NCBI GenBank assembly: GCA_024636155.1
Contig: JAGXHM010000123.1
Span: forward strand, 1 to 49,036
Source of the DNA: Deltaproteobacteria bacterium
GTDB taxonomy: Bacteria; Desulfobacterota; Desulfuromonadia; Desulfuromonadales; BM103
DNA: 49,036 nucleotides
Direction: 5' to 3'
Positions 25,290 to 47,514 of the stretch are shown here, piece after piece (position 1 is the first letter of the stretch; each line of letters starts with the position of its first letter). The position numbers and the translations under genes are program-made. Below the pieces are notes generated by a model, which was not told the DNA's origin, did not search any database, and saw only the letters and a list, made by a program, of their open reading frames with translations.

Positions 25290-25379
25290 TGTCGCTCTAT
25301 AACGAGATCATTCTCACGTGTGGTACTAAGCGACAACGCAGGACAATTTCCGCCCAAAAACTTAGCACCGGAGGCATCA

Positions 25380-26507
25380 ATGGCTGCGCAAATTTATTTC
25401 GCTGATATGCGTGCAGGAATGCGGGAGAACCTGCACACCAAACTGGAAAGGCTGACCGAACTGGCCGGACTTTCCAAGGTGATCTGCAGTGGTGACCTGG
25501 TTGCCATCAAGATGCACTTTGGTGAAAAGGGTGGCCACGCCTATATCAGGCCAACCTTCGTCCGCCGCATCGTCGACCAGATCAAAGCTCTCGGCGGCAA
25601 ACCTTTTCTTACCGATTCAAGCACCCTCTATCCAGGGGAACGCAAAGAAGCCGTCTCCTCCCTGACCTGCGCTATCGAAAACGGCTTTGCCTACGCCGTT
25701 GTCAACGCCCCTCTCATCATGAGCGACGGGCTGCGTGGCCATTCGTCGCAGAGGGTTGCGGTTGCCGGAGAACTCCTTGCAGAGGTTGATATCGGGCGCG
25801 AAATCATCGAAGCCGATGCCCTGATCGTACTTTCCCATTTCAAATGCCACGAGCTGACCGGCTTTGGCGGTGCGATCAAGAATCTCGCCATGGGCTGTTC
25901 GAGCCGCACAGGAAAACTCGAACAGCACTCCACTCTGGGACCGACTATTTCGGCAAAGAAATGCACCTCCTGCGGAGCCTGCCTCAAAGCCTGTGCCCAT
26001 GATGCAATTGATCTGAGCAGCGGCAAAGCGGTACTCGATGCCGTACGTTGTGTTGGCTGCGGCCGCTGTATCACGGTCTGTGAACCAAAAGCAGTTCAAA
26101 TCCAGTGGAACGAAGAATCCGCCCTGGTGATGAAGAAGATGGCGGAGTATTCCTTGGGAGCCATCTCAGGGAAAGACAAAAAGCTACTCTTTGTCAATTT
26201 CATCACCCAGGTTTCACCGGCCTGCGACTGCTACGGCCACTCCGATACCCCAATCGTTGCCGATATCGGCATACTCGCCTCAACTGATCCGGTCGCCCTG
26301 GATCAAGCGTGCGCCGACATGGTAAACCAGGCGCGCGGTCTTCCTGGGACAGCGATGGCAACGGGTCATGAAGCTGGCGGCGACAAGTTTCGAGGAGTTT
26401 ATCCTCATATTGATTGGGAAGTGCAGTTGGAGCATGGGGAGAAGGTTGGGTTGGGTGTGCGGGCTTATGAGGTTGTCGTTTTGCAGCCGGTCGGGGAGAA
26501 GTGGTGA
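25380..26507 (+). CDS. DUF362 protein with two [4Fe-4S] ferredoxin motifs
   Basis: The 375-residue protein joins a DUF362 domain to a ferredoxin insert. The DUF362 features are VAIKMHFGEKGGHAYIRP near the start, the SHFKCHELTGFGGAIKNLAMGC centre, and the late DPVALDQACADMV. The insert has two complete CxxCxxCxxxC clusters (CTSCGACLKAC and CVGCGRCITVC). It has no signal peptide and is likely cytoplasmic. The family is common in anaerobes and probably redox-active, but no reaction is proven. ATG 25380 follows GGAGG. It faces a second DUF362 gene on the other strand. Confidence 0.88.
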   Translation: MAAQIYFADMRAGMRENLHTKLERLTELAGLSKVICSGDLVAIKMHFGEKGGHAYIRPTFVRRIVDQIKALGGKPFLTDSSTLYPGERKEAVSSLTCAIENGFAYAVVNAPLIMSDGLRGHSSQRVAVAGELLAEVDIGREIIEADALIVLSHFKCHELTGFGGAIKNLAMGCSSRTGKLEQHSTLGPTISAKKCTSCGACLKACAHDAIDLSSGKAVLDAVRCVGCGRCITVCEPKAVQIQWNEESALVMKKMAEYSLGAISGKDKKLLFVNFITQVSPACDCYGHSDTPIVADIGILASTDPVALDQACADMVNQARGLPGTAMATGHEAGGDKFRGVYPHIDWEVQLEHGEKVGLGVRAYEVVVLQPVGEKW

Positions 26508-26553: not shown

Positions 26554-27477
26554 TCAAACCATTCTCACCTGGCTCAGATCCATAACCCCCAACCCTCTCC
26601 TGGCGGCAGCAACAACAGTTGCGACATCTTCCGGTTTAAGGCCAAAGAGGGTTGTAGCATAGGCATCAGCAGCGACCATATCGGGCGAAGCAATCAGCGT
26701 GTTTATGACACGGACATCCTCGACCCGCCCGCCCTGTGGTCCGTTGGCAATCAGGATACGGGTCGCATCAATGACGGTGAGATCAGCATGGATAACCGTT
26801 GCGATGTCCGTAAGCGCCTCAGCTATATTATGATGCATCCTTCCCCGGTTGCCACCAATCACGCCCATCAGGTTTTTCATGCCAAGGGTCAAACGGGAAA
26901 TCGAGTGATGCTTGGCAATTGGCACATTGATCAATCGGTCAGCTTCAATCGCTGGCATGTAGAACTCCCACCGCTCAAATGCCTGCCCGCCACGAATCTC
27001 CAACTCTTTGTAAGCGCGCCGATCCATATATTCGAGGCTGATGCGATCCGACTTGATCGATTCGAGCGCAGCGCGAATACCACTCTGCGTGTAGCAACGC
27101 CGTTCATCATTGCAAGGGCGATCAAAGATACGCACCTGCTTGGCACCGGCATCGAGGCAAAGTAGCGCCAAAGCCTTGACGACATCGGGATGTGTATTGG
27201 CGGCCAGCTCAACCGTACGATCCCAGCCGATATTTGGTTTAAGCACAACGATATCGCCCGGCTTGACGAACTGCTCCAATCCCCCCAGTGCGCTCAAAGT
27301 TTCTTTAACCAGAAGCGGTATATCCTGCCCCTTACGCACAGCCAGGGATGGGGCCTCTGCAGCAGAAGCGGGGGCAGCAAAGGGACCGATTGCGGGCAGG
27401 CATCCAACGGCGGCGATCGCTGCTGCGCTTTGAATGCTCTGGCGTATAAAGGTTCGGCGATCAATTCTGGTCGTCAT
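26554..27477 (-). CDS. Tat-exported DUF362 protein
   Basis: The 307-residue protein begins with a twin-arginine signal (RRTFIRQ at 7-13, then a long hydrophobic stretch), so it is probably exported folded, with a cofactor. The DUF362 body shows GDIVVLKPNIGWDR, an internal NVPIAKHHSISRLTLGMKNLMGVIGG and a DMVAADAYATTLFG end. It has no ferredoxin insert, unlike the neighbouring convergent DUF362 protein. It is the last gene of the - strand beta-helix/beta-sandwich cluster, 62 bp after gene B3, and may be cotranscribed with it. Confidence 0.85.
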   Translation of the reverse strand: MTTRIDRRTFIRQSIQSAAAIAAVGCLPAIGPFAAPASAAEAPSLAVRKGQDIPLLVKETLSALGGLEQFVKPGDIVVLKPNIGWDRTVELAANTHPDVVKALALLCLDAGAKQVRIFDRPCNDERRCYTQSGIRAALESIKSDRISLEYMDRRAYKELEIRGGQAFERWEFYMPAIEADRLINVPIAKHHSISRLTLGMKNLMGVIGGNRGRMHHNIAEALTDIATVIHADLTVIDATRILIANGPQGGRVEDVRVINTLIASPDMVAADAYATTLFGLKPEDVATVVAAARRGLGVMDLSQVRMV

Positions 27478-27539
27478 GGGCTCATCTCTACAGAGAAAAG
27501 GTTAAAAGAATGGTTGCGTGATGCTGCCTGTTACGGTTG

Positions 27540-28400
27540 TTACCAATCACTTATCTGGACTGGTCCGACCAGAGGCTTTGGAGCTGTGACAAGCCCCAGA
27601 CGGGTATCAATTTTCTTGTCCAGGAAAGTTTCACTAATGATCGCTTGATCCTGCGTGCCCCACCAGTTTTTCGGCAGGGTCACTGCCCCCGGCTGCTGCC
27701 AACCCAACTTGACGTTATATTGGCGATTACCGGTAATGTTGTTCTCTTCAATACGCGTTTTATCCTCCGAGCGGGTCACCACGAACAGACCAATATCATT
27801 ATCGCGGATATCGTTGTGATGAATAAATGCTTCACCGCCGCGCTCTTCGAATCGCAATCCATGCCGGTTGTTGTACATGCTGTTTCCGGCGGCAAAGAGA
27901 TTCACAGTAGAGAATCTCAAGCCATCCACATTGTAGCGAAAAATTGAATTGGTTACCCGCGCCCGACAAAAATGAATTTGCAATCCGCTGTAAGCGTACT
28001 CGGAAATAATGTAATCCAGCTCTGCCTGCCGGGCAAAATCGAGGTAAAGATATTTCCAATCGGAGAGCTTCGGTTGTTTGGCCGCACTCGTAAAGAGGAT
28101 CGGGGCCGCTGCTGTGCCGCGAGCTATCAAAGCACCTTCAACCAGGAGCTCCGCATCCCCGATGCCGTCTCCGTCCTCGTCTTTGGCAACAAAATAAACC
28201 TGCGTGCCAGGCTCAATGGTCAGCTGCCCGGACTTTTTAACTGTGACCACACCTTCAACCAGAACCTTGCCACTCCAGACCACCGCGCCTTCGATAACTT
28301 TACTGTTCACTTTAAGGGTAGGCACAGTTGTCGTGCAACCGATAAGCAGACAGAGCAGAGTGAGAGAAAAGCCAAAGCGGATGAGATTCGTTAAGAACAC
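27540..28400 (-). CDS. B3: beta-helix lipoprotein
   Basis: This 286-residue protein has a lipoprotein signal (LLIGC, Cys22). The N-terminal unit, W-S-G...VTVKKSGQLTIEPGTQVYF, is a typical opening of right-handed beta-helix surface proteins, and NosD-type repeats with N-x-I/N-R hot spots follow (for example HNDIRDNDIGLFV and ENNITGNRQYNV). It ends with a LPKNWWG motif shared with B1 and B2. An outer-membrane or periplasmic location is inferred. Unlike the other A/B genes it is separated from its upstream neighbour by a palindromic repeat (28445-28535). Confidence 0.85.
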   Translation of the reverse strand: MFLTNLIRFGFSLTLLCLLIGCTTTVPTLKVNSKVIEGAVVWSGKVLVEGVVTVKKSGQLTIEPGTQVYFVAKDEDGDGIGDAELLVEGALIARGTAAAPILFTSAAKQPKLSDWKYLYLDFARQAELDYIISEYAYSGLQIHFCRARVTNSIFRYNVDGLRFSTVNLFAAGNSMYNNRHGLRFEERGGEAFIHHNDIRDNDIGLFVVTRSEDKTRIEENNITGNRQYNVKLGWQQPGAVTLPKNWWGTQDQAIISETFLDKKIDTRLGLVTAPKPLVGPVQISDW

Positions 28401-28444
28401 GTCATTCCTTAATGTTATAGACCAACAACCAGAACAAAAGCTTT

Positions 28445-28535
28445 ACCACAAAGGCACAGAGCACACAGAGAAGGTCACAATAGCATTACCCATTGATCTT
28501 GTTTTCCTCTGTGTCCTCTGTGACTCTGTGGTTCA
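28445..28535. repeat. CACAGAG-type imperfect palindrome, copy 2
   Basis: ACCACAAAGGCACAGAGCAC at the left pairs imperfectly with CCTCTGTGACTCTGTGGT at the right. It lies in the 178-bp gap between genes A3 and B3 and may separate or modulate their expression. Confidence 0.7.
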
Positions 28536-28578
28536 AATTCCTTTGTTCGGCTTCAGCATTTTTTCGATTACAGAGCCG

Positions 28579-29619
28579 TTAAAAAATCGCGACCGGCTCC
28601 ACGACAATACGCACCCGATCAAGGTTTTCGCCTTCCTCCAGAGTCAAGCCATGATCGGCGCTAACCTCATACATACCGAACAATTCTCCAGGGGCAGGTG
28701 AATCACCGTAAGCCTCCCGGGCACCGACATAATAAGTCCCCGGTTCCGGTAAGTTGACGACAAAACGGCCGTCATCAGTGGTCGGTGTGGAAATGGCCGC
28801 TGGCCGCTGGTGGCCTATGACCCGGTCAACATAAGCAAAAACATGCACACCGGAGACACCCCGACCCGAGGTATCCACCACCGTCCCGCTCAGTACTGGG
28901 CCGGTGGCCCGACCAAAGGTTTCACTTTCGGTGGTATCTTTAAGCTTTGCAACGCTATGCAGGACAACTTGCTGCACCTGCCCGGATTTAGCAGTCAGTG
29001 GATTGCCGGGATAGATACCGAACAGATCACCAGCCAGGACCGGCCCAACACGCTGACCATTCTGACGATGTCGCACAACCAAAAAATAGTTACTTTCCGA
29101 TAGCCCGTCAAAACGAAAATAGCCTTCTTCTGTCGTCGGCTGAGAGAGCCGATACCCATGGCCCTTAAGATCCTCAGCAACATCCAGGTAGAGATAGACA
29201 TAGGCGCCACTTAAGGGTGCGCCATCATGCAAAACCTGCCCTTCTATTGCGGCACTATATTCATCGTCGTAGACGGCAGACGTCGGTTTTTGAACCGGCA
29301 CAGCTTGCAGTCCGGCCCAGACCGACGCCTCTGCCACATTGACTGGATTGCGGCCGCAAAAGGCAAAATAGCTGCGGTCGGCACTCCAACCGAAGAGAGC
29401 GTAAGTGCCCTTTGCCACTTCCAACGAGTAATAGCCATCACTATCACTTATTGCCGAGGAAGCGAAAGCTTTTGCGGTAAAATCCAGTGAAGCATAAACG
29501 TTAACCACAACCCCTGGCAACGATTCATCGCCATGAACCACGCGACCCTCAATCATCGCTGCGGAAAGCAGGGCCGGCACGGCCAACAGGGCGAGCAGCA
29601 GGAGTAATCGTTTCATCAC
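28579..29619 (-). CDS. A3: exported three-domain beta-sandwich protein
   Basis: The 346-residue protein has a Sec signal (cleavage near residues 18-20, ALLSAA) and three tandem carboxypeptidase-regulatory-like domains of about 110 residues, starting near 24, 128 and 240. Each has a G-x-V...G-x-x-V/Y-Y strand set, a T-DGYF-type turn and a (Y/F)-x-G/R-N-P motif; in domain 2 this is GDLFGIYPGNPL. Domain 1 has the variant CGRNPV. The fold resembles adhesive surface domains. The start overlaps the B2 stop by 4 bp. Function is unknown. Confidence 0.82.
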   Translation of the reverse strand: MMKRLLLLLALLAVPALLSAAMIEGRVVHGDESLPGVVVNVYASLDFTAKAFASSAISDSDGYYSLEVAKGTYALFGWSADRSYFAFCGRNPVNVAEASVWAGLQAVPVQKPTSAVYDDEYSAAIEGQVLHDGAPLSGAYVYLYLDVAEDLKGHGYRLSQPTTEEGYFRFDGLSESNYFLVVRHRQNGQRVGPVLAGDLFGIYPGNPLTAKSGQVQQVVLHSVAKLKDTTESETFGRATGPVLSGTVVDTSGRGVSGVHVFAYVDRVIGHQRPAAISTPTTDDGRFVVNLPEPGTYYVGAREAYGDSPAPGELFGMYEVSADHGLTLEEGENLDRVRIVVEPVAIF

Positions 29620-30977
29620 TTATCCAAAGGACCGGCACCGCTTACCGGACCATCCAACCACGGCGAAAAGAGGATCCAATCAAGTTGGTAAACACCGGGA
29701 CCATAATCCTCGTAAGTAACTTCCGGCTCATCGTGACGATCATAAAAGAGCGCGCTGTTGCCATCTGCGCCGGTCTTGACCAGTTGCGCCGTATCATCTC
29801 CCCACCAGTTGCCACTGACATCAACAAAATCGTCGAAAGTTTCCGGCGCTTTCGCAAGCATCGGGTTCTGACTTTTGCGAGACGTCGCTTCTCGCTGCAT
29901 AATTTTTTTTGACCCGGAGCGTTTCTCCCAATCGGCACTTTGGTAAATACCGAGTTTGACACCGTTGATGTTGCCGAGGAAATTGTTCTCTTTAACGTCC
30001 GGGTACGCAGAGAAGTCGCAGTAGAGAGCCAGCGTGTTCTGCTCAAAATTGTTCAGGCGTACCTTGGGATTTGATTTGCGATAGCTATACAGTGCCGTTT
30101 CATTGTCGCGAAACAGGTTGTTTTCAACGAGAGGTGAACCATACTGGTCATTATGTACCGCCGTCATGTTAGCGATAAAGCGGTTGTTTCTGATCGTCGG
30201 ATAAGAGAAGGAAAAGTTCATGACACCATAAGCGTTACGCTCAAACAAATTCTCTTCGATCAACGGTGAGCTCTTGGTCTGATTACAGTAGATAGCGACT
30301 TCATTTTCAGTAAAAGTATTGTTACTGACCCGGTCCGGATAATTCTGCAACAGGGTGACGCCCTGCTTATTTTTCACAAAGGTGTTATCGACGATCAATC
30401 CTTTGCTGTTGTGCGAGGCGAGGATTGCAGAGCGAGCCTGATTGACAAAATGGTTGCCACGGATTTCCGGTCCGGATTTCATTTCGTTGGCAACCCCGAC
30501 CTGGTTGTTCTCGAACGATGAGTTCAGAATAACCGGGTTTGATTCGCGAAGCAATCTGACGCCGAATTCATTTTCTTTAAAAGTACAGTTCTCCACTCTG
30601 AAATCGGTAGCAAAGCTACTGATCGCAGCTTGAGCAGAATGGAATTGCGCCCACCGGAAAAAGCTGCCAACAGGAGCTTCCATGAACTCAACGCCGGCCC
30701 AACCGGTTGGGCCGGAGAAGAGGACCGGAGCGGAAGCACTTCCTTCCACCTGCAAAAGGCCTTGCACGCCTATCTTCACCTGAGTATTTGCTGCGGTAAC
30801 CCGCGTTCCTGATGCAACGGTCAGGGTCGCACCCCGACCCACCACAACGGATTCTTGCAAATCAATCAGGCCCGACCAGCGAACCTCTCCAGACAATTCC
30901 TTGGCGTCGCAATAGCCAGTGAGAAAAAGAACAACGATTCCAGCCAAAAAGCTAGTCAGTACCTTTCGGTGCCACAT
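29616..30977 (-). CDS. B2: exported beta-helix protein
   Basis: This 453-residue protein has a Sec signal (about 1-25, ending CDAKEL) and an N-terminal W-S-G...ATLTVASGTRV unit. Many beta-helix turns of about 22 residues follow, with N-x-F and N-N-x-F stacks such as ENNLFRDNETAL, EENLFERNAYGV and RNNRFIANMTAV. Near residue 392 it has the VSGNWWGDD motif shared with B1, preceded by a charged insertion. It overlaps A2 by 26 bp at its start and A3 by 4 bp at its stop. Such folds bind or process polysaccharides in many proteins, but no catalytic site is recognisable here. Confidence 0.85.
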   Translation of the reverse strand: MWHRKVLTSFLAGIVVLFLTGYCDAKELSGEVRWSGLIDLQESVVVGRGATLTVASGTRVTAANTQVKIGVQGLLQVEGSASAPVLFSGPTGWAGVEFMEAPVGSFFRWAQFHSAQAAISSFATDFRVENCTFKENEFGVRLLRESNPVILNSSFENNQVGVANEMKSGPEIRGNHFVNQARSAILASHNSKGLIVDNTFVKNKQGVTLLQNYPDRVSNNTFTENEVAIYCNQTKSSPLIEENLFERNAYGVMNFSFSYPTIRNNRFIANMTAVHNDQYGSPLVENNLFRDNETALYSYRKSNPKVRLNNFEQNTLALYCDFSAYPDVKENNFLGNINGVKLGIYQSADWEKRSGSKKIMQREATSRKSQNPMLAKAPETFDDFVDVSGNWWGDDTAQLVKTGADGNSALFYDRHDEPEVTYEDYGPGVYQLDWILFSPWLDGPVSGAGPLDK

Positions 30978-31995
30978 GGATCACAACCTCCATTTTTTGA
31001 CCTGAGACGGAAACCGCCTGAGGGTCGCCGCCAGGCTTTTGCAGCTTACCATACAATTCATCCCCACCAGCCGGGCCACCAAAGGCCTGTCGCGCCAGCA
31101 GATAATACGGACCACCCTCTGGCAGCGCGAGCTCAAAACGACCGTCCGCTCCGGTCGGCGTTGAGAAAAAATCGGGCGTTCCTGTCATCTCGGCTTGTCG
31201 GTAGGCAAAGACATAGAGCCCTGTTTGAAGTGCTCCCGCAGCGTCGACCACTTGGCCACTGACGCCTTGGAAATCAACAACATCTTCCTCAAGCATCGAA
31301 AGCCGGGTCACGGTCTCAATCTTGACTTCGTGGAGCTGGCCTGACTCAATGTGGACCGGATTACCGAAATAGTAATTGAAATGATCACCGATTTCTATCG
31401 GTCCAAACTGGCCGCCCCGCGCGCGCTTGCGAGCTAACAGGTAGTAATCGCCAGGCGGCAGGTTAAGACGGAAGCTGCCACGGAGAACTGGCTGGATAAA
31501 ATAACCAGGGCCCTTGAAGCCTTTACTCGGATCCTTGTAGACATAGAGATAGGCTTTTTCCAGCAGCTCGCCCTGATAGGAAAGCTGGCCATAGATTCCT
31601 GAACGCTCCGCCTCTTTTACAGCTTCTTCATCAGGCACGCGGATCAGGTTGAAGCCAACATTACGATAGCCATGGGCTGGCACCTGAATCGGGCTACCAC
31701 TGTAATAGCAGAAGAGGTCGCCTGGCTTGAGGAGACCAGATCGGCTGCTAGCCGTCAGCACATAATTGCCAGGTGCAAGTTCAAGCTGATAGATACCATC
31801 CAGATCGGTCGGCGCCGAAACGGCAATGGGCTTGGCTCCGGCGATATCTTCAATCTGTCGATAAGCCTGAACGGTGATCTCCGGGATCAACTCACCGCGC
31901 CAGGCGACACGCCCACGGACACCGCTGTCAGCAAAGGCCGGAACCGCGAGCAGACAGATCAAAGTGCAGGCAAAAAAGATTCGACACCAATTCAT
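30952..31995 (-). CDS. A2: exported three-domain beta-sandwich protein
   Basis: The 347-residue protein has a Sec signal (AFADSG end, near 22) and three carboxypeptidase-regulatory-like domains starting near 24, 130 and 245. Domain 1 contains GDLFCYYSGSPI, domain 2 GDHFNYYFGNPV, and domain 3 a diverged YGKLQKPGGDP version. Each domain also has a YxLLAR/LTASSR-type strand before this motif. It starts at ATG 31995, overlapping the B1 stop by 4 bp (ATGA), and overlaps B2 by 26 bp, implying tight co-translation. There is no catalytic site, so an adhesive or scaffolding role is inferred. Confidence 0.82.
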   Translation of the reverse strand: MNWCRIFFACTLICLLAVPAFADSGVRGRVAWRGELIPEITVQAYRQIEDIAGAKPIAVSAPTDLDGIYQLELAPGNYVLTASSRSGLLKPGDLFCYYSGSPIQVPAHGYRNVGFNLIRVPDEEAVKEAERSGIYGQLSYQGELLEKAYLYVYKDPSKGFKGPGYFIQPVLRGSFRLNLPPGDYYLLARKRARGGQFGPIEIGDHFNYYFGNPVHIESGQLHEVKIETVTRLSMLEEDVVDFQGVSGQVVDAAGALQTGLYVFAYRQAEMTGTPDFFSTPTGADGRFELALPEGGPYYLLARQAFGGPAGGDELYGKLQKPGGDPQAVSVSGQKMEVVIHVAPKGTD

Positions 31996-33182
31996 CGCTT
32001 CATCTCTGTCAAGGGTGATTCACTCCAGGGGATATGGGCAACTTTATCCAGGGGAAATTCCTCCCCGGCGTCGACAAATGTCGCCTGATCTCTGCCATCG
32101 TGGATGAAGGAGGGATTGCCTAGCGTGCCGATCTTTTTCAGTTCAGCCGTGCCCTCATCGCCCCACCAGTTGCCTTTGGCAGCCACAGTTCCATCCATGC
32201 TTTTGGCGCGACGGTCATCCTCAGTCACGCTACGCATACCCTGACCGGCAAAAGCACTTTTTGCCGAGGTTTCTCCGGCTCGGGCATCCGCACCGCGCTG
32301 TGATTCCCAGGCAGACGACTGGAACTCCAGTTTGAGCGCCATCTCGTTGGCCAGAAAGTCGTTGCCTTCTATCTTCGGGTATGAAGAATAAGCGACCAGC
32401 AGCCCAACACCATTCGCCTCGATGCGGTTTGCACTGATCACCGGATCGGAACGCCGATAGATATAGAGGCCAGTCTGATTGCCACGCAACAAATTACCAT
32501 GAATCAGCGGACGAGCAGCACGATCCACCTGTATGGCAACCTCATTCTTTTCGAAGCGATTGTCACTCACCACCGGATCACTACCGTGATAGGCGATCAT
32601 CAAACCGATAGCATTGCCGGTAAAAAAATTACCTTGGAAAGTGCGCGGCAATGCGTGATAGAGATACGCACCATAGAGACTGTTGTTTTCAAAGCGACAA
32701 GCAACAACAGCGGTTGTGCTGTCATCTTTGACAAAGAGTCCAACCTTGCGGTTGTCAACAAAGCGGCAGTTAGCAATTTTGCCAGCAGCCTTGCCGCGCA
32801 ACTCAATGCCAACTTTGTTGTCAGAGAGCGTTAGCCCTTCGAGAAGCGGGGCGCCACCCTGCACAAAGATACCGGTCTCAGCCCCCTTGATCACACAATC
32901 AGAAATGCGGGTTGTGGCGTCAGTGCCTTTCAGGCGCAGACCTTCCCAGCTTTCTCCTGAGAACTCAGCACCCTGTGCCACCAGGCGACCGGATATTTCC
33001 AGTTTCCCTGCTGTGAAATGAATGGTCGAACCGGGGACGACGGTCAGAGTCACCTCAGGCATGACGCGAACATCCTCCGTAAAGAACTGCTCACCAGTCC
33101 ATATCGTATCCTTGTCCACCACCAAGGCCATTGCAGGCATCGCGCAAAGCAGAGCAAAGATTATGAGGAGACAGAATCTCAC
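31992..33182 (-). CDS. B1: exported beta-helix protein
   Basis: This 396-residue protein starts at GTG 33182, overlapping the A1 stop by 4 bp. It has a Sec signal (about 1-20, ending AMAL) and a W-T-G...VTLTVVPGSTIHF opening, then regular beta-helix turns with SDNRFEKNEVAI, SANRIEANGVGL and EGNDFLANEMAL repeats. A charged, Ala/Arg-rich insertion (about 305-340) leads to KGNWWGDEG. The similarity to B2 in order, insertion and NWWG motif shows that they are paralogues. Confidence 0.85.
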   Translation of the reverse strand: MRFCLLIIFALLCAMPAMALVVDKDTIWTGEQFFTEDVRVMPEVTLTVVPGSTIHFTAGKLEISGRLVAQGAEFSGESWEGLRLKGTDATTRISDCVIKGAETGIFVQGGAPLLEGLTLSDNKVGIELRGKAAGKIANCRFVDNRKVGLFVKDDSTTAVVACRFENNSLYGAYLYHALPRTFQGNFFTGNAIGLMIAYHGSDPVVSDNRFEKNEVAIQVDRAARPLIHGNLLRGNQTGLYIYRRSDPVISANRIEANGVGLLVAYSSYPKIEGNDFLANEMALKLEFQSSAWESQRGADARAGETSAKSAFAGQGMRSVTEDDRRAKSMDGTVAAKGNWWGDEGTAELKKIGTLGNPSFIHDGRDQATFVDAGEEFPLDKVAHIPWSESPLTEMKR

Positions 33183-34264
33183 CAGAACTCCTTTACAATG
33201 ATTGCACCGAGATCAGCATTGGAGCCTCGCGCAACGGTCACTTTGTGATCAGGCTCACCATCAAAAGTTCCCACCCACTCGCCTGGCTCCAACGGCCCGC
33301 CAAAGGCACTGCGGGCGCCAATATAATAGGTACCGCCATCGCTGAGGAAGAGCGAGAAGTGGCCATCGGCACCAGTCGGAACGGACATATGCACCGGTTT
33401 GCCAACCATACGGCTGTCGAGATAAGCGAACAGATAGACATCGCTGACTGGCTCGTTATCGGCGTTAACAACCTGGCCATGCAGCAAGGTCTCCGTCTTG
33501 GCAAAAATCCCCTCTGCCTGGCGTTGTGCGTGAACAACCGCGTCTACCGTCTCCAGAGAAAAATCACCCAGAACCAGGCGTTCGCCACTGCTAACCTTGA
33601 CTGGGTTACCCGGGTATGGTGCGTTCAGATCACCAGGAGACAAAACTCCGGAACGGCCGCCGTCTGCACGCTTGCGTGCGACCACGGAATAACTTCCAGC
33701 GGGCAGGTTGATCGTAAAATATCCTTTTTTATCAGTCTGCACGGCCTCGCCATATGATGGGCCAATCAGGCCGACATCAGTTGCGGTGTAGATATAGACA
33801 TAAGCGCGGGATACCGACGCACCTTGATAAGTGATTTGACCAGACACCCCGGTAGCAGCATCCGCCATCAGCAGACCTTCACGCCCCATTTCGTGTAAAT
33901 TGAAGGTTGCCACCTGAGATATCACGTCCCCCACCTGATGTGGATTTGCCGGTGACTCTGCCATCAGCATACGGGTCCGGCCGTCATCGGTTGTTTCCCG
34001 CTTCTTGCCGATCACAAAATAGGAGCCTTCTGGCAGAGAAACCTTATATCGCCCTTCGCCATCAGTGACGACAACAGCAAATGGCTGAACAGAACGATCC
34101 TTGTCTGCCTTGAGATAAATCTCTACCTGCGCTGACAATAGCGGTTGATCCCGAAAAAGCAACTGCCCACTCAATCCGCTTTCGCCATCGGGGGTGCATG
34201 CTGATAGCAAAAAAAGCAGAAGGAGAGCCAATATCGGGCGGGCATATTTCAACAATAAATTCAT
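33179..34264 (-). CDS. A1: three-domain beta-sandwich lipoprotein
   Basis: The 361-residue protein has a lipoprotein signal (FLLSAC, Cys23) and three tandem beta-sandwich domains starting near 30, 150 and 260. Domain 2 has GDLNAPYPGNPV; domain 1 carries the weaker AESPANPHQV. Domain 3 has the YYIGARSAFGGP strand shared with A2 and A3. It is probably anchored in the outer membrane and is the first of the six A/B proteins to be made. A 4-bp overlap with B1 couples their translation. Confidence 0.83.
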   Translation of the reverse strand: MNLLLKYARPILALLLLFLLSACTPDGESGLSGQLLFRDQPLLSAQVEIYLKADKDRSVQPFAVVVTDGEGRYKVSLPEGSYFVIGKKRETTDDGRTRMLMAESPANPHQVGDVISQVATFNLHEMGREGLLMADAATGVSGQITYQGASVSRAYVYIYTATDVGLIGPSYGEAVQTDKKGYFTINLPAGSYSVVARKRADGGRSGVLSPGDLNAPYPGNPVKVSSGERLVLGDFSLETVDAVVHAQRQAEGIFAKTETLLHGQVVNADNEPVSDVYLFAYLDSRMVGKPVHMSVPTGADGHFSLFLSDGGTYYIGARSAFGGPLEPGEWVGTFDGEPDHKVTVARGSNADLGAIIVKEFW

Positions 34265-34289
34265 CGAAAACTCACAACAAGATTAAACC

Positions 34290-34356
34290 TTGCCACAGAG
34301 ATAAAGAGGAGAAACTGATGCTTTTTGCTTTCTCTGTCCCTCTGTGTCTCAGTGGC
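34290..34356. repeat. CACAGAG-type imperfect palindrome, copy 3
   Basis: TTGCCACAGAGATAAAGAGG faces CCCTCTGTGTCTCAGTGGC with a short T-rich spacer. It fills the 102-bp gap between the membrane enzyme gene and A1. Confidence 0.7.
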
Positions 34357-34366
34357 GAATATCATT

Positions 34367-36796
34367 TCAACCAGAGTACCTACTTTTAAAAACCGGAATC
34401 AGAGCCAACAAGTAAAGCAATGTACCAACTAACAAAGTCACGGTAAAACCGGCATTCATAGCAACAATAACCGCCAGAATTGCGCCAAGCACGCTCGTGG
34501 CGCTATTCACCCCCCAACTCCAGGGGACCAGATCGTTACTGTCATGAAAGAGTCGCATACCGAGAGGTAAAGGCATGCCCATCAAAAGCCCCAACGGCAC
34601 CAGTAGCACCCCGGCCATCATGCAACGAGCAAAAACCGGCAGTCCCATATAAGGATCAAGTATCCAGGTGAGACCGAAGACATAGAGGAGAGAAAGCAAG
34701 ACCAGTGCCAACAGAATTCTCGGCAACCAGCGACGCAGAGCTGCAGACGGCAAACGGGACGACAGGAGCGCACCGAACCCGGAACTGATCAGAAGCGAAC
34801 AGAGGATCACCGCCAGAGAGTAGATCGGTGGGCCAAGGAAAAGGATGAAACGCCGCAGCAGACCAATCTCGATGAACATGAAGCCAAGCCCGAGTGAAGC
34901 AAAGTAGAGCACCCGCCAAGCGCTAGCAGACGTTCTCAACCCTGCGCGACGCCACAAGAGCAATGGCAAAATCAAAAAAGCAGCAACACAAGTGCCAACC
35001 ACAACCAGCAGGTTGCGCAACGTCATAAGCGCACGATCTTCAAACTTGCCCTGTTCCGGAAAGCTAAAAAGCTTTATGAAATCAGCAGGTTTAAGCATGT
35101 AATAGAAAAACGGTCGGTCATCAGTTACAGGTCGGATGTCGAAGGGAAAGCTGGCGTAGAACTCGGCACTGCCATTGGCGCGGATCAGGTCATGAAAAGC
35201 CCCTGTCCCGTCACGGCGGTCGGGCAGAAAGACTTCCTGAAATTCCATATCTGCCATCAGACCCCTCAGCTTTGACAGTTCGTCAACCGAGAAAGGCGTC
35301 CGTTTAAGCATGAAATTGGCGAGACCGCGTTCGCGGACCACTGCAATATGCGCCGCCGGGTCGGCAACCCCTTGCTCTTGCAGAAGAGCCAGGCCGAGAG
35401 AGACCAGACGCAACGTTTCACGTTCAAAGATGAAGCGCGAGATTGTCAGGATTCCGTCATCGTCAAGGTGGTCCCAATAATCGGTAAACGCCTCCAGCGT
35501 ATAGAGGTTGTTTTCCGACAGGGTGAACGCCCCGGCTGCAGGGGCCATCCGTCCAAAGACCGCAGACGCCTGAATAATATCGTAGCGGTTAGGATCGCGG
35601 CGTATAAAGCTGCGCCCTTCATCAACCACAGATCGGACCTTGGGATGCCGATAGAGTTCACCAGTCAAAGCTCCGAAATGATCATTAACAGCGTCAACAA
35701 TCAATTGATTAACTTCAACAGCGGTCACCTTGACCGCGCCGGACGCGAGCGCGGTCAAGACATCTTTGCCACCGCCAGGACCAATCACGAGAGAGACTGG
35801 CTGCTCCTTGAGCTGGTAGGCCAGACCGATGACATTTTTGCGGAAGAAATCCTGGCCGGTCTCACGATCCCAGCGATACATGGTCGTGTAGCCGGTATCG
35901 TCAACTACCATGCCTAGTTGATCGGGGACCGGCCCCCGATAGGTTCTTGATAAACCCCAGGCCTGATCCTTGGCTTCCCATTCCGAAGGATAAACCGCTA
36001 CACGCGAAAATGAATTCCATGCACTCCACAGCACGTTCGGCTCATAACGACCACGTACAAATTGAATCTCGGCAAACCCGGTCAAGGCATGAACGCAACC
36101 GATGCCAAGCAGGAGAACAAGAACCAGAGCAGCGCCCCGACGGTGTATAGAGGCGACATCACGCGGCAGTAACAGCAGGGCACTGGCAATACCCACCGCT
36201 GCAATCATCAGCAGTGAAGTGATCCCGCCGAAGAGCTTGAGAAGCAGAATAATCAGCAGACAACCACTACCAGCGCCAAGCAGATCGTAAAAATAGAGCC
36301 GGCTGAAATCTGCATGATAGCGGCCGAAAAGAACTGTCAGAGAAATCCCGGCAAAGAAGAATGGCAGGGCAGTCACCAGATAGAGACAGGTCAGGGCCAC
36401 CAGCATACCAACTGGCAGGGTGCTATCAGCACCACCTTGCTGAAAAGGCTGATAGAAGGGCTGATGAAAGAAAGAAAGGACCTTGAAACCGAGATGAGGT
36501 TGCCAGCGAAAGAGCACGAAGACCGCAAAGAAGAGTGCGACACTCAGGCCAAACAGGATCGCACCACGAGCGGCCACAAATCGAGCATCTGCACCTTGAA
36601 ACCAGCGCGGTCGCAACTGCACAGTCAAAGCAGCGACACCCATACCAAACAAGGCAAGTGAGATGGCCATCGAGGCAAAATGGTACCACATCAGTACTGA
36701 GAATATCCGCGTCAGGATCAACTCGTACATCAAGGTTCCCAAACAGAGGAGATAGACTCCCCAGCAGACAAAACGATTTGCTGACTGGTTAACCAT
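34367..36796 (-). CDS. Membrane protein with spermidine-synthase-like domain
   Basis: The 809-residue protein has about eight hydrophobic helices in its first 240 residues, a soluble Rossmann-type domain (about 290-570) and a second hydrophobic block (about 590-805). The soluble domain has the SAM-like motif LVIGPGGGKDVLTALASGAVKVTAVEVN and YDIIQAS, as in spermidine synthase and SAM methyltransferases. Whether it transfers an aminopropyl or methyl group is unknown. It opens the - strand cluster; the 102-bp gap to A1 suggests cotranscription, but this is inferred. No clear Shine-Dalgarno sequence precedes ATG 36796. Confidence 0.8.
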   Translation of the reverse strand: MVNQSANRFVCWGVYLLCLGTLMYELILTRIFSVLMWYHFASMAISLALFGMGVAALTVQLRPRWFQGADARFVAARGAILFGLSVALFFAVFVLFRWQPHLGFKVLSFFHQPFYQPFQQGGADSTLPVGMLVALTCLYLVTALPFFFAGISLTVLFGRYHADFSRLYFYDLLGAGSGCLLIILLLKLFGGITSLLMIAAVGIASALLLLPRDVASIHRRGAALVLVLLLGIGCVHALTGFAEIQFVRGRYEPNVLWSAWNSFSRVAVYPSEWEAKDQAWGLSRTYRGPVPDQLGMVVDDTGYTTMYRWDRETGQDFFRKNVIGLAYQLKEQPVSLVIGPGGGKDVLTALASGAVKVTAVEVNQLIVDAVNDHFGALTGELYRHPKVRSVVDEGRSFIRRDPNRYDIIQASAVFGRMAPAAGAFTLSENNLYTLEAFTDYWDHLDDDGILTISRFIFERETLRLVSLGLALLQEQGVADPAAHIAVVRERGLANFMLKRTPFSVDELSKLRGLMADMEFQEVFLPDRRDGTGAFHDLIRANGSAEFYASFPFDIRPVTDDRPFFYYMLKPADFIKLFSFPEQGKFEDRALMTLRNLLVVVGTCVAAFLILPLLLWRRAGLRTSASAWRVLYFASLGLGFMFIEIGLLRRFILFLGPPIYSLAVILCSLLISSGFGALLSSRLPSAALRRWLPRILLALVLLSLLYVFGLTWILDPYMGLPVFARCMMAGVLLVPLGLLMGMPLPLGMRLFHDSNDLVPWSWGVNSATSVLGAILAVIVAMNAGFTVTLLVGTLLYLLALIPVFKSRYSG

Positions 36797-37140: not shown

Positions 37141-37521
37141 TCAGAGCTTGACAACCTCAACCAGATAGCCGTCCGGGTCGGCAAGAAAATAGAATCGCGC
37201 GCCCTGACCCGGCAAGCCCTTAAGTGGCTTGGGCGAGAGGCCCATCTCGGCATGCATTTTATGTGAAGCTTCCAGATCAGCAACACCAACCGCCAGATGG
37301 GAATAGCCATTACCCAGATCATAAGGCTCAGCCTGATCCTGGTTCCAGGTCAGCTCAAGTTCAAACTCGCTTCCTGGAGAACGTAGATAACTGAGGGTAA
37401 ATTTATACTCGGGAAAATCCTTGCGACGAACGACTTCAAAACCAAGAGCATCTTGATAAAACTGCTCAGATTTCTCAAGGTTCATAACCCGAAGACAGGA
37501 ATGAATCATCTGATAAGACAT
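37141..37521 (-). CDS. gloA: Lactoylglutathione lyase (glyoxalase I)
   Basis: GloA converts the methylglyoxal-glutathione adduct to lactoylglutathione. The 126-residue length is typical of the Ni/Co-type bacterial enzyme. The four metal ligands are all present and at near-identical numbers to E. coli GloA: His7, Glu56, His75 and Glu122. The start at 37521 follows GTAAGGAG. It lies 2 bp after the stop of the upstream membrane-protein gene, so the two are cotranscribed. Confidence 0.95.
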   Translation of the reverse strand: MSYQMIHSCLRVMNLEKSEQFYQDALGFEVVRRKDFPEYKFTLSYLRSPGSEFELELTWNQDQAEPYDLGNGYSHLAVGVADLEASHKMHAEMGLSPKPLKGLPGQGARFYFLADPDGYLVEVVKL

Positions 37522-37523
37522 GC

Positions 37524-37904
37524 TTACTCCTTACCTTTCGCTTTCGCTTTCTCTTTCTTTCTGCCGAGCTCAAATGGACGGGCCTGACGGCTGATGATAA
37601 AATCAGCAAAGATTTTCATCCAGAGCGTCACGCCAGCGATAGAACTCCACGTCTTGTAAGGGAAGAGCGCAAAAATGACACCAACAATAGTTATAAGTGC
37701 CGCTGCCCCTGCGACGAGGTTAATGATACCCGTTGCTGGAGCCCATTTTTCAGGATCTGGAGGAGCCTCACCACCCTTCAGGGCGACTTCAGAATAATCG
37801 CGCTTGATGAAGATCTTCCATGCACGCCGCAGCCAGATAAATGCCATGGGAGAGAGGGCGAGGAACAACATCCATGTGATCGCGATACTTATATCAAAAA
37901 CCAT
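37524..37904 (-). CDS. Small membrane protein of unknown function
   Basis: The 126-residue protein has three hydrophobic segments (about 5-27, 58-82 and 88-107) and a charged tail ending in a Lys-rich run (KKEKAKAKGKE). I recognise no family. It is translated just before gloA with a 2-bp gap. The start is ATG 37904 after GGGAGTAATGA. Confidence 0.7.
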   Translation of the reverse strand: MVFDISIAITWMLFLALSPMAFIWLRRAWKIFIKRDYSEVALKGGEAPPDPEKWAPATGIINLVAGAAALITIVGVIFALFPYKTWSSIAGVTLWMKIFADFIISRQARPFELGRKKEKAKAKGKE

Positions 37905-37995
37905 TCATTACTCCCGGTGACCCTGTAAATGCAGGGTGTCGATAAAAACGTATTCTCTTGTACCTGACGGCACAAAGGCAAGCAAACTAATTTTG

Positions 37996-38026
37996 CAAAA
38001 AAACCCCGCCAGACTGGCTGGCGGGG
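37996..38026 (-). terminator. Rho-independent terminator of the symporter operon
   Basis: Read on the - strand, CCCCGCCAG pairs with CTGGCGGGG around a 5-nt loop, followed by seven T's. It closes the DUF4212-symporter transcript. Confidence 0.92.
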
Positions 38027-38068
38027 TCAGATAATCAGGCAATAGCCGGATTAGATATTCACTAAAAG

Positions 38069-39895
38069 TTAGTGAGCGTGGGTACCATCAACAGCTTTGG
38101 CGCCGCGCGGGGTGCGCACATTTTCGACCATGTGCTGAATGTGCTCAGGGCATTCCGGAGTGATCTTGCTGACCACGTAGGCAACCGCAAAGTTAACCAG
38201 GGCACCGATCGCGCCAAACGCGTTCGGCTCAATACCCAGGAAGAAGTTGGCCTTGCCACCGAACAGACCGAGAAATTCGGTCCCCGGGATGAAGAAGAGG
38301 CCTTTGTGGGCAAAAACGTAGAGCATGGTAATGCCGAGACCAGAGAGCATACCAGCCATTGCGCCTTCTTTGTTCATCTTCTTGTTGAAGATACCCATCA
38401 TCAGAGCCGGGAAGATCGAACTGGCGGCGAGACCGAAGGCGATGGCCACGGTACCCGCTGCGAAGTCCGGAGGATTAAGACCGAGATAACCGGCGACCAC
38501 GATGGAGCAACCCATGGCGATCTTACCAGTCATCAGCTCATTCTTCTCACTCATGTCAGGCATAAAGATGTTCTTGAAAAGGTCATGCGAGATCGCCGAA
38601 GAGATCGCCAGCAGCAGACCAGCAGCGGTCGAGAGAGCAGCAGCCAGACCACCAGCGGCAACCAGAGCGATAACCCAGTTAGGCAACTTGGCGATTTCCG
38701 GGTTAGCGAGAACCATGATGTCCTGGTTAACCGTCAGCTCACTGCCTTTCCAGCCAGCAGCCGTGGCACCAGCGGGAGTATTCTTGGCGTTGTAGTACTG
38801 GATGCGGCCGTCACCGTTCTTGTCTTCGAACTTGAGCAGGCCAGTGGTTTCCCAACGCTTCATCCAATTGGGACGCTCATCGTACCTGATGCTGTTTTCT
38901 TCTGCAAACATCGCAGTAGCGCGGGCTGCATCAGTGGCGTAGTTCTGCTTGACAGCCTTGTTAACCGAGGCATGCAGGTTCAGACGTGCCATAGCAGCAA
39001 CTGCAGGAGCGGTGGTGTAGAGGATCGCGATAAAAACCAATGCCCAACCAGCAGAGGCGCGCGCATCTTTAACCTTGGGAACCGTGAAGAAACGCATGAT
39101 AACGTGTGGCAGACCGGCTGTACCGATCATCAGTGACATGGTGTAGACGAACATGTTCAGCGTGCTGATACGGGTCATCGTGGTGTACCTTGGGAAACCG
39201 AGGTCCATAACGACCTGGTCCAGTTTACCCAGCAGAGTCATGTCGGTACCGACAAAATCGCCACCCAGGCCAAGCTGTGGGACTGGATTGCCGGTCAGAG
39301 TCATCGAAATAAAGATGGCAGGAACCGTGTAAGCCAGGATCAGGACGCAGTACTGAGCGACCTGAGTGTAGGTGATACCCTTCATGCCGCCGAAAACCGC
39401 GTACATGAAAACGATAGCCATACCGATGAAAACACCGGTGTGGTTGGAAACCCCAAGGAAACGGGAGAACGCAACACCGACACCGGTCATCTGACCGATG
39501 ATGTAGGTGAGCGAAGCCGCCAGCAGACAAAGAACCGCCACGCAGCTTGCTGCTTTGGAGTAAAAACGATCCCCGATGAACTGAGGCACGGTAAACTTAC
39601 CGAACTTACGCAGGTAAGGCGCCAACAGCATTGCCAGGAGAACGTAACCACCGGTCCAACCCATAAGGAAGAGACCACCGCCGTAACCCATGTTAGAAAT
39701 CAGGCCGGCCATCGAGATAAAGGAAGCGGCAGACATCCAGTCAGCGCCAGTTGCCATACCGTTTACGATGGGGTGTACACCGCCCCCGGCAACGTAGAAT
39801 TCACTGGTGCTGCCCGCACGGGCCCAAATAGCGATACCGATGTAAAGAGCAAAGGTAGCGCCGACAACGAGATAGGTCATAGTTTGAAGTGTCAT
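38069..39895 (-). CDS. Acetate-type sodium:solute symporter
   Basis: The 608-residue SSS-family permease probably imports acetate or a similar monocarboxylate with sodium, as the Geobacter homologues beside DUF4212 do. It has about 13 membrane helices, the early GADWMSAASFISMAGLISNMGYGGG motif, and sodium-site-like GLAAALSTAAGLLLAISSAISHDL. An unusual external loop of about 70 residues holds DKNGDGRIQYYN (358-369), which resembles an EF-hand calcium loop except for Asn at position 12. AAGGAG precedes ATG 39895. It is 11 bp after the DUF4212 gene. Confidence 0.9.
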   Translation of the reverse strand: MTLQTMTYLVVGATFALYIGIAIWARAGSTSEFYVAGGGVHPIVNGMATGADWMSAASFISMAGLISNMGYGGGLFLMGWTGGYVLLAMLLAPYLRKFGKFTVPQFIGDRFYSKAASCVAVLCLLAASLTYIIGQMTGVGVAFSRFLGVSNHTGVFIGMAIVFMYAVFGGMKGITYTQVAQYCVLILAYTVPAIFISMTLTGNPVPQLGLGGDFVGTDMTLLGKLDQVVMDLGFPRYTTMTRISTLNMFVYTMSLMIGTAGLPHVIMRFFTVPKVKDARASAGWALVFIAILYTTAPAVAAMARLNLHASVNKAVKQNYATDAARATAMFAEENSIRYDERPNWMKRWETTGLLKFEDKNGDGRIQYYNAKNTPAGATAAGWKGSELTVNQDIMVLANPEIAKLPNWVIALVAAGGLAAALSTAAGLLLAISSAISHDLFKNIFMPDMSEKNELMTGKIAMGCSIVVAGYLGLNPPDFAAGTVAIAFGLAASSIFPALMMGIFNKKMNKEGAMAGMLSGLGITMLYVFAHKGLFFIPGTEFLGLFGGKANFFLGIEPNAFGAIGALVNFAVAYVVSKITPECPEHIQHMVENVRTPRGAKAVDGTHAH

Positions 39896-39906
39896 CGATA
39901 ACTCCT

Positions 39907-40161
39907 TTATTCTTCGTGAACGTCAAATTTTTCGTCGAGTTTGCCCATGAGATGTGCATAAACAAAAATCATGATGACGAAACAGTACATAGCACCTTGC
40001 TGCGCAAACCAGAAACCCAGCGGATAACCACCCACACTGAAGCTGTTGAGCGCATCTGCGAACAGAATGCCGCAACCGAACGAGACAAAAAACCAAACTG
40101 CCAGAACTTGGATTATCAACGTACACGTTGCTTTCCAATACGCTTTACCACTTTTGTCCAT
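39907..40161 (-). CDS. DUF4212 symporter small subunit
   Basis: This 84-residue protein has two membrane helices (about 14-35 and 50-72), the family's early YWKATCTLIIQVLAVWF and the GYPLGFWFAQQGAMYCFVIMIFVYA signature. DUF4212 proteins are encoded directly before ActP-type symporters and probably form a complex with them. AGGAGG precedes ATG 40161. The two genes are one operon. Confidence 0.93.
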   Translation of the reverse strand: MDKSGKAYWKATCTLIIQVLAVWFFVSFGCGILFADALNSFSVGGYPLGFWFAQQGAMYCFVIMIFVYAHLMGKLDEKFDVHEE

Positions 40162-40752
40162 AATAACCTCCTTCAGGTTAGATAAAAAAACTACGAATCA
40201 TTGCCAGACGTAAACTTCCTTACCACCTCCTTAACTTTGCCCGGAAAAATACTGGAAATAACTCCGATGCGTTTTGGTCTCACTGAGTCGGCAAAGAAAC
40301 GAGCCAGGAGACAAAGTTTTAATTATCCAGTTACAACGTTTTATATCAGGGCCTTTAGCTAACAAATAAAACCTGCAGAAGCATACTTTTTAAATGACCA
40401 AGTTAAGCAAAGTTTAACCAACATTCTCTTTTTGTAAATCTCTACTCCCACTAAAGATGCAGATTGAAAGAGAAGATAGCTTGAGTCTCCCGACTGAGTC
40501 AATAAAAAAATATAACGTTGTTTCGTTTCCGCTAAATCCAGACCGAATGGCACGGGCCAACGGCTCCTTTCAGCGTTTCAAGTTTGTCTTGTGGGAAGTA
40601 TATCGACAAAACACAAGTTTGCCAGTAAATGCACTGTTATTCCTGTCAGCATAATGTTTTACCGGTCTTACCGAAGAGAACGAACAGTTGCATAAAACCC
40701 TAAAAGCGTTGACAATGTCTCAATTTATTACTGTTTTATTTTCGGAGCCTTC
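40162..40752. promoter_or_regulatory. Divergent regulatory region of the symporter and CBS-DUF294 gene
   Basis: This 590-bp AT-rich region has no gene. A TTGACA (40709-40714) with TGTTTT 17 bp on is a modest promoter candidate for the CBS-DUF294 gene. An inverted CTTGTG / CACAAG pair (near 40588 and 40614) and the paired words TTAAGCAAAGTTTAA could be operators. I found no sigma-54 type GG...GC promoter. Confidence 0.4.
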
Positions 40753-42209
40753 ATGCCTGACAGCAACTTCAACGAGGAGAGTTTTTTCTTCCTGCACACT
40801 GCGAGCGTCTGCCGCAGCCCTGCCGTCACTTGTGCCCCTGATATCAGTGTCATTGCAGCGGCCCGTATAATGTGCGATCAAAACCTTGCCGGGCTTGTCG
40901 TGATTGCAGAGGGGGCCCCCATTGGTATCCTCTCAGTACGTGACCTGCGCGACCTGATCGCTACCGCAGGTGAAAGCATTGCTGGATATAAGGTTTGCGA
41001 CATCATGCATGTTGGCGTGATAACTGTCAGTCATCAGGCTTACGTTTTTGAGGCCATCTTTAAAATGGCCAAAAACAACATTCATCATCTGGCCGTGTTA
41101 ATGATGATCAAGAACTGGTCGGCGTTATCAATGCCATCGATTTGCTCAGCCAACAGACTCGCAGTCCGCTTTATCTGATCCAGGAGATGGAGGCGGCTGA
41201 ATCGATTGAGGAGCTCAGAGAGATCAACGGTCGCATTCTTGAGATGGTAAGAAGCGCCATGAGTGCCGGAGCCGAGACCAGAAGCCTGGTCCACCTGATT
41301 GCCCACTTCAATGATGGCTTCACGCAACGCATCATCTCACTTATGGAGAGCCTGGAAGGGATTGTTCTTCCAGCCAAGGCAGCCTACCTTGCCCTCGGTA
41401 GCGAGGGGCGCGGAGAGCAGACCTTACGTACCGACCAGGACAGCGCCTTGATCTATGCTGATGATATTTCGCCAGCAGAGCTAAACGACTGCACCATCTT
41501 TGCCAACCGGTTGGTAGAAGCGCTCGAGTTTGTTGGCATCCCCCGCTGCCCCGGCAACACCATGGCAAGCAACCCTCAGTGGCAACACAGCCTCACCGAG
41601 TGGCAGCAGCTCCTAGAGCAGTGGATCTCCGTGCCCACCGGAGAGCACATGGTCAACTTCGGCATGTTTCAGGATTTCCGCACAATCCATGGCGATAGCT
41701 CTCTGGAAAAACATCTGCACGAGTTCATACATGCGACAACTCAGAGGAACATGCTTTTTTTCCCTTACGTCGCCAAGAACATTGTCCGTTTTCCCGCACC
41801 ATTGGGAATGTTTGGCCGCATCAAAACAGAACGCAGAGGAGCCAATCGGGGCAAGGTTGACCTCAAGAAATCGGGCATCTTTGCACTGACAAGCGGGATC
41901 AGTTTGCTCGCTCTGGAAAATAATGTAGATAAGGGAACAACCTGGGACAAGCTCGAAAAACTTGGACAGATGGGAGTTCTCTCAACCAAGAGTAGCGAAA
42001 CGCTCAGCGAAGCGTTCACACAACTGGTTAATCTTCGCCTGCAACGTCAACTAAGCGATCTGGCTGCGGGGCACAAACCGAGCAACGCTATCGACCCGCT
42101 GCGTTTGCCTTACAAGATGCAAAACCAACTTCGCGAAGCTTTGCGCGGCGTCAATCAACTCTTGCGTATTCTTCGCGACCATTACCGGCTCGATTCCATC
42201 TCCCGTTGA
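40753..42209 (+). pseudogene. CBS-pair/DUF294 nucleotidyltransferase-like gene, frameshifted
   Basis: The intact relatives have two CBS domains, a nucleotidyltransferase-like DUF294 domain and a C-terminal domain, and sit beside ActP/DUF4212 in many genomes as probable regulators of the transporter. Here the first frame runs to 41178, but the coding sense leaves it near 41098. Inserting one A in GTGTTA|ATGATG restores NDDQELVGVINAIDLL and joins the downstream frame (41100-42209). The NTase motif LGSEGRGEQTLRTDQDSALIY is intact downstream. Unlike many relatives it has no N-terminal cyclic-nucleotide domain. It could be a pseudogene, a sequencing error or, less likely, a programmed shift. Confidence 0.8.
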
Positions 42210-42213
42210 CCCT

Positions 42214-42379
42214 GGCAGTCTGTCGGACTATCAATGGACTGGCTGCAAATTCGTCTGTTTGGCCCATATCTCAGCTCCTCTTCGACCAATAGCTACGGCT
42301 ATTACTCTCAAATGAGCTAAAATCTGGCCTCAAACATCCAAGTTTTCGCTTCTGCCCTGATTGTCCGACAGGCTGCTAG
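42214..42379 (+). repeat. Family A dispersed repeat, copy 3 (complete)
   Basis: It starts about 5 bp after the DUF294 stop codon and ends at a palindrome. It shows the same inverted ends and central AATAGC-TACG-GCTATT hairpin as copies 1 and 2, with scattered differences. Confidence 0.85.
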
Positions 42380-42416
42380 ATAAGAAGGGCCGGCAAATTT
42401 GCCGGCCCTTCTTATC
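42379..42416. terminator. 38-bp perfect palindrome, likely bidirectional terminator
   Basis: The two 19-bp halves are exact reverse complements, centred at 42397/42398 (AAATTT) and containing GGGCCGGC. It lies between convergent genes, with T-rich and A-rich shoulders, and would terminate both. Confidence 0.8.
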
Positions 42417-42434
42417 TCAATATTTAAATTGTCA

Positions 42435-42680
42435 CTATTGGACAGCCGGATCAAAAAACCAAATGCTCTGTTTCTTGCGCCAACCTTCCTGCCACATACA
42501 GCTTTCATAGCTCATCCGCTCTCCACCTGACTCTATCACCTTGGATGCACCGCCTGTCTCTGCCTGGCAACTTCTGTCATCCGCATAAAACTCAGAGGTC
42601 CGCTTGGTCGAATGCTCCCAACGGGAAGCACAGCCACTCAGAAAAAGCGCAAAAAAACCAATCAAAACCCAACGCATCAT
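42435..42680 (-). CDS. Small lipoprotein of unknown function
   Basis: The 81-residue product has a lipoprotein signal ending FLSGC and a short mature part with three more cysteines (RSCQAE and ESCMWQEGW) and a WEHSTKRTSEFYADD start. I recognise no family. The start at ATG 42680 is preferred over a longer reading from 42713 because AAGGAG lies just upstream of it. An outer-membrane location is inferred. Confidence 0.7.
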   Translation of the reverse strand: MMRWVLIGFFALFLSGCASRWEHSTKRTSEFYADDRSCQAETGGASKVIESGGERMSYESCMWQEGWRKKQSIWFFDPAVQ

Positions 42681-42798
42681 TGCCCGACTCCTTACCGCAA
42701 AATTCATATTCATCGACAGTCCCTAAATTGACCCGAATTATACCATCCTTATCAGCAATTGAAAGCTGCCTCAATGGCAACTAACAAAGAAAAAAACC

Positions 42799-42827: not shown

Positions 42828-42870
42828 AGCCAGTACTTATTGTCTTGCACTAACCACCAAGGAGAGAATC

Positions 42871-43143: not shown

Positions 43144-43163
43144 AGCCAGCCTTATGCAACCTC

Positions 43164-47510: not shown

Positions 47511-47514
47511 GGCC

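Follow-up and report, generated by a model that had tools for sequence, protein, structure and literature searches.

The accessory genes of nitrous oxide reductase systems, the nos genes, encode exported beta-helix proteins (NosD) together with polyferredoxins of the NosR/NapH type. In the Desulfuromonadia, porin-cytochrome conduits such as Ext and Omb-Oma-Omc bring envelope genes into the vicinity of multiheme cytochromes in metal-reducing lineages. The membrane polyamine aminopropyltransferases (PRK03612, NF002956) consist of N-terminal transmembrane helices followed by a SpeE-like domain, and TTR-like folds are found among the partners of redox enzymes, for example as chain Y of the multiheme hydrazine dehydrogenase complex (PDB 6hif). 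The locus described here resembles each of these in part.

The window, the whole 49,036-nucleotide stretch of a Deltaproteobacteria bacterium contig (JAGXHM010000123.1) that was analysed, carries on its minus strand between positions 26554 and 36796 the genes MP-A1-B1-A2-B2-A3-B3-Tat-DUF362, where MP is a spermidine-synthase-like membrane protein, A denotes proteins built of TTR-like domains and B denotes beta-helix proteins (Table 1). The order and positions of these eight genes are all as given in an earlier reading made from the sequence only, which had also ascribed Sec or lipoprotein signals to all six A and B proteins; lipoboxes are indeed present in A1 and B3, and Sec-type N-termini can be read from B1, A2, B2 and A3. 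The envelope location proposed for these proteins is supported by such predicted signals. The DUF362 protein has the twin-arginine motif RRTFI, which all 19 of 19 orthologues examined keep. Convergent with its gene, on the plus strand at 25320-26507, is the gene of another DUF362 protein, this one carrying two 4Fe-4S motifs.

Table 1. Features of the window (positions in the 49,036-nucleotide stretch)
Feature	Position	Strand	Description
Tat-DUF362 (D362)	26554-27477	-	307 aa; PF04015, E 9e-47
B3	27540-28400	-	286 aa, GTG start; beta-helix lipoprotein (PF13229), lipobox LIGC
A3-B3 gap	28401-28578		178 bp; two inverted CACAGAG repeat copies (28447-28530); DUF3467 gene here in relatives
A3	28579-29619 (GTG) or 29616 (ATG)	-	346/345 aa; exported TTR-domain protein, PF13620 in three stretches
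B2	29616-30977	-	453 aa; exported beta-helix (PF13229); start overlaps A2 by 26 bp
A2	30952-31995	-	347 aa; exported, three TTR-like domains (PF13620)
B1	31992-33182	-	396 aa, GTG start; exported right-handed beta-helix (PF13229/PF05048)
A1	33179-34264	-	361 aa; lipoprotein, TTR-like CarboxypepD_reg domains (PF13620), lipobox LSAC
MP-A1 gap	34265-34366		degenerate copy of CACAGAG repeat
MP	34367-36796	-	809 aa; 14 transmembrane helices, SpeE-like domain at about residues 240-584
Neighbouring block	37141-48804		glyoxalase, symporter, DUF294, c7 cytochrome, channel, two FKBP, MFS, M48; context, outside the array

In the window, A1 and B1 overlap by 4 bp, as do B1 and A2, and A2 and B2 by 26 bp. 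The B2/A3 overlap depends on where A3 starts: it is 4 bp from the GTG at position 29619, or 1 bp from the ATG directly after. Orthologues mostly show 4 bp, which favours the value originally reported; the overlaps of the earlier reading (4, 4, 26 and 4 bp) are real. That between A2 and B2 (30952-30977) is unusually long, and among 24 orthologous junctions 18 have one of 20-26 bp; as gene order and even the length of this overlap are conserved, the arrangement goes beyond chance. The proposed coupled operon structure is supported, the overlaps from A1 to A3 being consistent with translational coupling; A3 and B3 are uncoupled. The repeat present in the gaps on either side of A1-A3 has 22 matches genome-wide at up to two mismatches, against none for a reversed control; no coding remnants of DUF3467 or SBP genes were seen in the gaps of the window beyond short flanking matches.

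About 40 loci share this gene order at MP identities of 34-88%, including loci whose MPs are only 34-47% identical, and so the adjacency of A and B genes is not restricted to the source genome. Within the Desulfuromonadales, A and B alternate strictly in the array. Orthologues of A1 (52-80% identity) were found in 25 of 58 other genomes of the order (order-mates), with more A genes regularly spaced. Scanning named genomes for MP returned 47 loci, most of them with array genes as far as the contig extends: examples come from Geothermobacter hydrogeniphilus HR-1, a Malonomonas rubra MAG, and Geopsychrobacter and Desulfuromonas MAGs, and distant ones (35-43% identity) from a Deferrisomatales MAG, the Proteobacteria MAGs SZUA-204, SKW176 and SKW305, and a Rokubacteria MAG.

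The full cluster in relatives, with genes called by homology, comprises an AAA ATPase, FmdE, an ArsP_1 permease, an ASPIC/FG-GAP protein, A0, B0 (a lipoprotein combining a beta-helix with a PQQ-type propeller) and MP, followed by A1, B1, A2, B2, A3, DUF3467, B3, an SBP (OpuAC), Tat-DUF362, a NapH-like polyferredoxin and DUF3047. Gene content varies by genome; relatives in genus g1, for instance, have neither ASPIC nor A0 in the cluster. The DUF3467 gene, of about 100 codons, separates A3 from B3 in most long clusters (for example at 18384-18865 of locus L059), and NapH proteins are among the parts retained across clusters. The array is the core of a large, anciently conserved and apparently undescribed gene cluster: in keeping with the earlier remark that no system with this layout was known, a search of open-access papers yielded no account of it, and almost nothing on DUF3467.

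The genes listed by the sequence-only reading are real, but the unit is longer than 26554-36796 and lies partly on another contig of the source genome; the redox genes of the cluster were out of sight of that reading. This contig (C62, locus L164) holds AAA, FmdE, ArsP_1, B0, DUF3467, SBP, NapH and DUF3047, a content complementary to that of the window, which has MP to B3 and DUF362; relatives of the same genus carry the cluster in one piece. The split looks like the product of duplication followed by complementary loss, or of rearrangement; assembly error is another option, because the assembly is fragmented (137 contigs, 72% complete).

Each position of MP-A1-B1-A2-B2-A3-B3 forms its own orthologue group. 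In Pfam, A proteins match CarboxypepD_reg (PF13620) and B proteins Beta_helix/NosD (PF13229/PF05048). The AlphaFold2 model of A2 (pLDDT 88) is a string of TTR-like domains, of which the first matches the TTR domain of carboxypeptidase D (Z 10.9) and chain Y of 6hif (Z 8.9), the latter being a match of fold at 15% identity which does not imply a shared function. With whole-length A2, Foldseek matched pilins and adhesins at low TM-scores only, leaving the per-domain TTR match as the usable result. No heme or FeS motif was found in the A and B proteins themselves. In the A tree, A1 (support 97) and A2 (support 99) each form one clade across all lineages and A3 nearly so, with A0 grouping with A3 and A1 with A2; in the B tree, B0 and B3 fall together (support 100), apart from B1 and B2, making B0 the nearest paralogue of B3.

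These trees bear on the model first put forward for the array, in which three A:B heterodimers of fixed stoichiometry, arisen by duplication of an A-B unit, form an envelope assembly. The A and B trees are congruent, which is compatible with such a duplication, but the argument is a weak one, as four-tip topologies agree by chance one time in three. That congruence, the strict alternation in Desulfuromonadales and the gene overlaps would all suit heterodimers; however, A1 is directly followed by A2, with B1 missing, at loci L087 and L091-L093, both B1 and B2 are missing from otherwise intact A1-A2-A3-B3 arrays at loci L089, L090, L094 and L136, and the DUF3467 gene parts A3 from B3 in most long clusters. 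Obligatory one-to-one pairing is not supported, because distant clusters keep A1-A3 without B1 or without B1 and B2, and the heterodimer model as a whole appears improbable.

The matches of the B proteins to NosD, together with the NapH-like polyferredoxins, SBPs and ArsP_1 permease of the cluster, could alternatively indicate a maturation system resembling the nos accessory genes, in which an exported enzyme has its metal cofactor supplied or reduced by NosD-fold proteins and FeS proteins of the NapH/NosR type, while FmdE, ArsP_1 and the SBPs handle metal or ligand. By contrast with NosD, however, the B proteins score far below the TIGR04247 cut-off of 300 bits (56 for B1 and B2, 21 for B3), neither a NosFY-type ABC transporter nor NosL was seen among the scanned cluster genes, and A2 has no conserved His and a single invariant Cys. 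No nosZ was found among the scanned genes; a search for the nosZ propeller gave no match, its control being likewise silent. We know of no Nos counterpart of the TTR-domain proteins or of MP, and consider metal maturation an unlikely role.

The AlphaFold2 model of MP (pLDDT 84.8, pTM 0.87) comprises seven transmembrane helices, a SpeE-like domain and seven more transmembrane helices. The best Foldseek matches are all spermidine synthases (E 6e-8), and there is a profile match to 1inl (E 1e-7); the match to Pfam Spermine_synth falls just under the curated cut-off, and that to NCBIfam SpeE is also weak. The designation of MP as a spermidine-synthase-like membrane enzyme holds for its fold and membrane helices but probably not for its catalysis: the catalytic Asp pair (DxxD motif) is absent from 35 of 35 homologues, the region reading QASAVFGRMAP or similar, and, from the positive-inside count over the 35 sequences (17.1 K/R on the N-terminal side versus 2.8 on the other), the SpeE-like domain is predicted to face the periplasm rather than the cytoplasm, where decarboxylated SAM is found. 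With these residues missing and the domain predicted to be periplasmic, MP is probably not a spermidine synthase or other aminopropyltransferase, and it differs from PRK03612/NF002956 on the same grounds as well as by its seven further helices. Divergent relatives of MP also exist without the array, and the neighbourhoods examined around them have no shared neighbour that would explain function.

A second module, also present in the source genome, consists of an EB_dh heme-binding protein (PF09459), a short A protein, a HEAT protein and a second NapH-like protein, often accompanied by beta-helix proteins and a PhnD-type SBP. Among the 58 order-mates, 30 have both array and second module (29 with array genes proper and one, G035, with A0 only), one (G011) has just the second module and 27 lack both, and in no case does the array occur by itself; Fisher's test gives a p value of 1e-15, which ignores phylogeny and is not readable as a probability. 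Phylogeny enters through just two within-genus contrasts: genera g1 and g9 hold both presence states, with array and second module concordant, such that G002 is without both, unlike its genus-mates, which carry the two together, and G042 carries both where G022 and G054 have neither. The second module adjoins the array, divergently or convergently, at L053, L057, L080, L094, L172 and L175, while at L140 and L141 its HEAT and short-A genes stand in among those of the array. Array, second module and membrane FeS proteins are strongly linked.

In several genomes, that of the source included, GGDEF and sigma-54 regulators lie beside the second module. Along with the frequency of beta-helix and TTR/pilin-like folds in adhesins, these regulators would accord with a cell-surface or exopolysaccharide system, in which the TTR and beta-helix proteins act as adhesins or bind glycans at the surface, MP and the lipoproteins see to their assembly, and the redox genes either support oxidative folding or are simply carried along. 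The conserved genes scanned, however, include no glycosyltransferase, polysaccharide lyase or sortase, and the NapH proteins are among the parts that clusters retain; we consider this reading, too, unlikely.

The cluster also tends to lie near giant multiheme cytochromes. The cytochrome motif PF09698 was found in 23 of the 30 carriers versus 6 of the 28 other order-mates; the motif occurs without the system in G015 and G040, and the system without the motif in G037, a genome estimated to be 100% complete. Cytochromes with 34 CxxCH motifs and about 2,700 aa directly follow B3 in G034 (at 0.4 kb) and G050 (at 0.1 kb), and it is only in family f14 that cytochromes touch the cluster. In G001, G006, G020, G025 and G051, cytochromes with 14-54 CxxCH motifs are encoded at distances of 0.3-10 kb from copies of A0, ASPIC or both that stand apart from the array; these loci were picked for A or PF09698 matches sharing a contig and are examples, not a sample. 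Giant cytochromes of 2,600-3,850 aa with 34-55 CxxCH motifs were noted at L180 (3494-15043), L182 (10647-18824) and L185 (12149-19999), one of the three having MtrC-like domains.

The block next to the array in the window is syntenic, gene by gene, with G001, G005, G006 and G009 of the same genus, and leads to A0 and ASPIC in G001, G006 and G009 and on to giant cytochromes in G001 and G006. The array lies 344 bp from this block in the window and is not present at that place in G001. The contig ends short of the expected position of A0, and the incomplete source genome yielded no close copy of ASPIC. A small c7-type triheme cytochrome encoded in the block (42817-43143, plus strand) is kept in the relatives. 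Identity with a porin-cytochrome conduit was considered and rejected, since such a conduit combines in one operon an outer-membrane porin with multiheme cytochromes of the inner and outer side: Pfam revealed no porin family in the scanned cluster proteins, and the cytochromes are neighbours rather than core components, adjacent only in G034 and G050.

As the cluster holds membrane FeS proteins and tends to occur close to giant cytochromes, it may have a role in moving electrons out of the cell. Our best, still tentative, guess is an envelope apparatus, linked to quinol, that serves large extracellular cytochromes. NapH-type polyferredoxins, and possibly EB_dh, would relay electrons between quinone pool and periplasm; MP, with its non-catalytic periplasmic SpeE-like domain, would provide the inner-membrane base; and the A and B proteins, some of them lipid-anchored (A1, B3 and B0), might form a long scaffold, or a structure for docking, that spans the periplasm or sits on the outer membrane. 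The client would be the large extracellular multiheme cytochromes, which the apparatus may assemble, anchor or feed with electrons. Several points count against the proposal: it is not obvious where FmdE, ArsP_1, DUF3467 and AAA would fit into electron transfer, the A and B proteins have no heme or FeS motif of their own, cytochromes touch the cluster in one family only, and system and PF09698 motif do not always go together. It can be stated more ambitiously, and with appreciably less confidence, as a porin-independent route of extracellular electron transfer, or its assembly apparatus, of about 28 genes, in which NapH-type proteins connect the quinone pool with giant extracellular cytochromes of 30-55 hemes, with TTR and beta-helix proteins arranged around a 14-helix MP whose retired SpeE domain faces outward. 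It is the gene set that appears new, no described system having been found in the literature searched; the mechanism is what we infer from it.

The cluster is a fixed unit in dozens of bacteria, several of them from metal- and sulphur-reducing lineages. If the cytochromes are its client, it would offer a handle on how proteins with 30-55 hemes are assembled, anchored at the surface and supplied with electrons. Whatever its function, DUF362, DUF3047, DUF3467, FmdE and ASPIC are tied by it into one co-inherited context.
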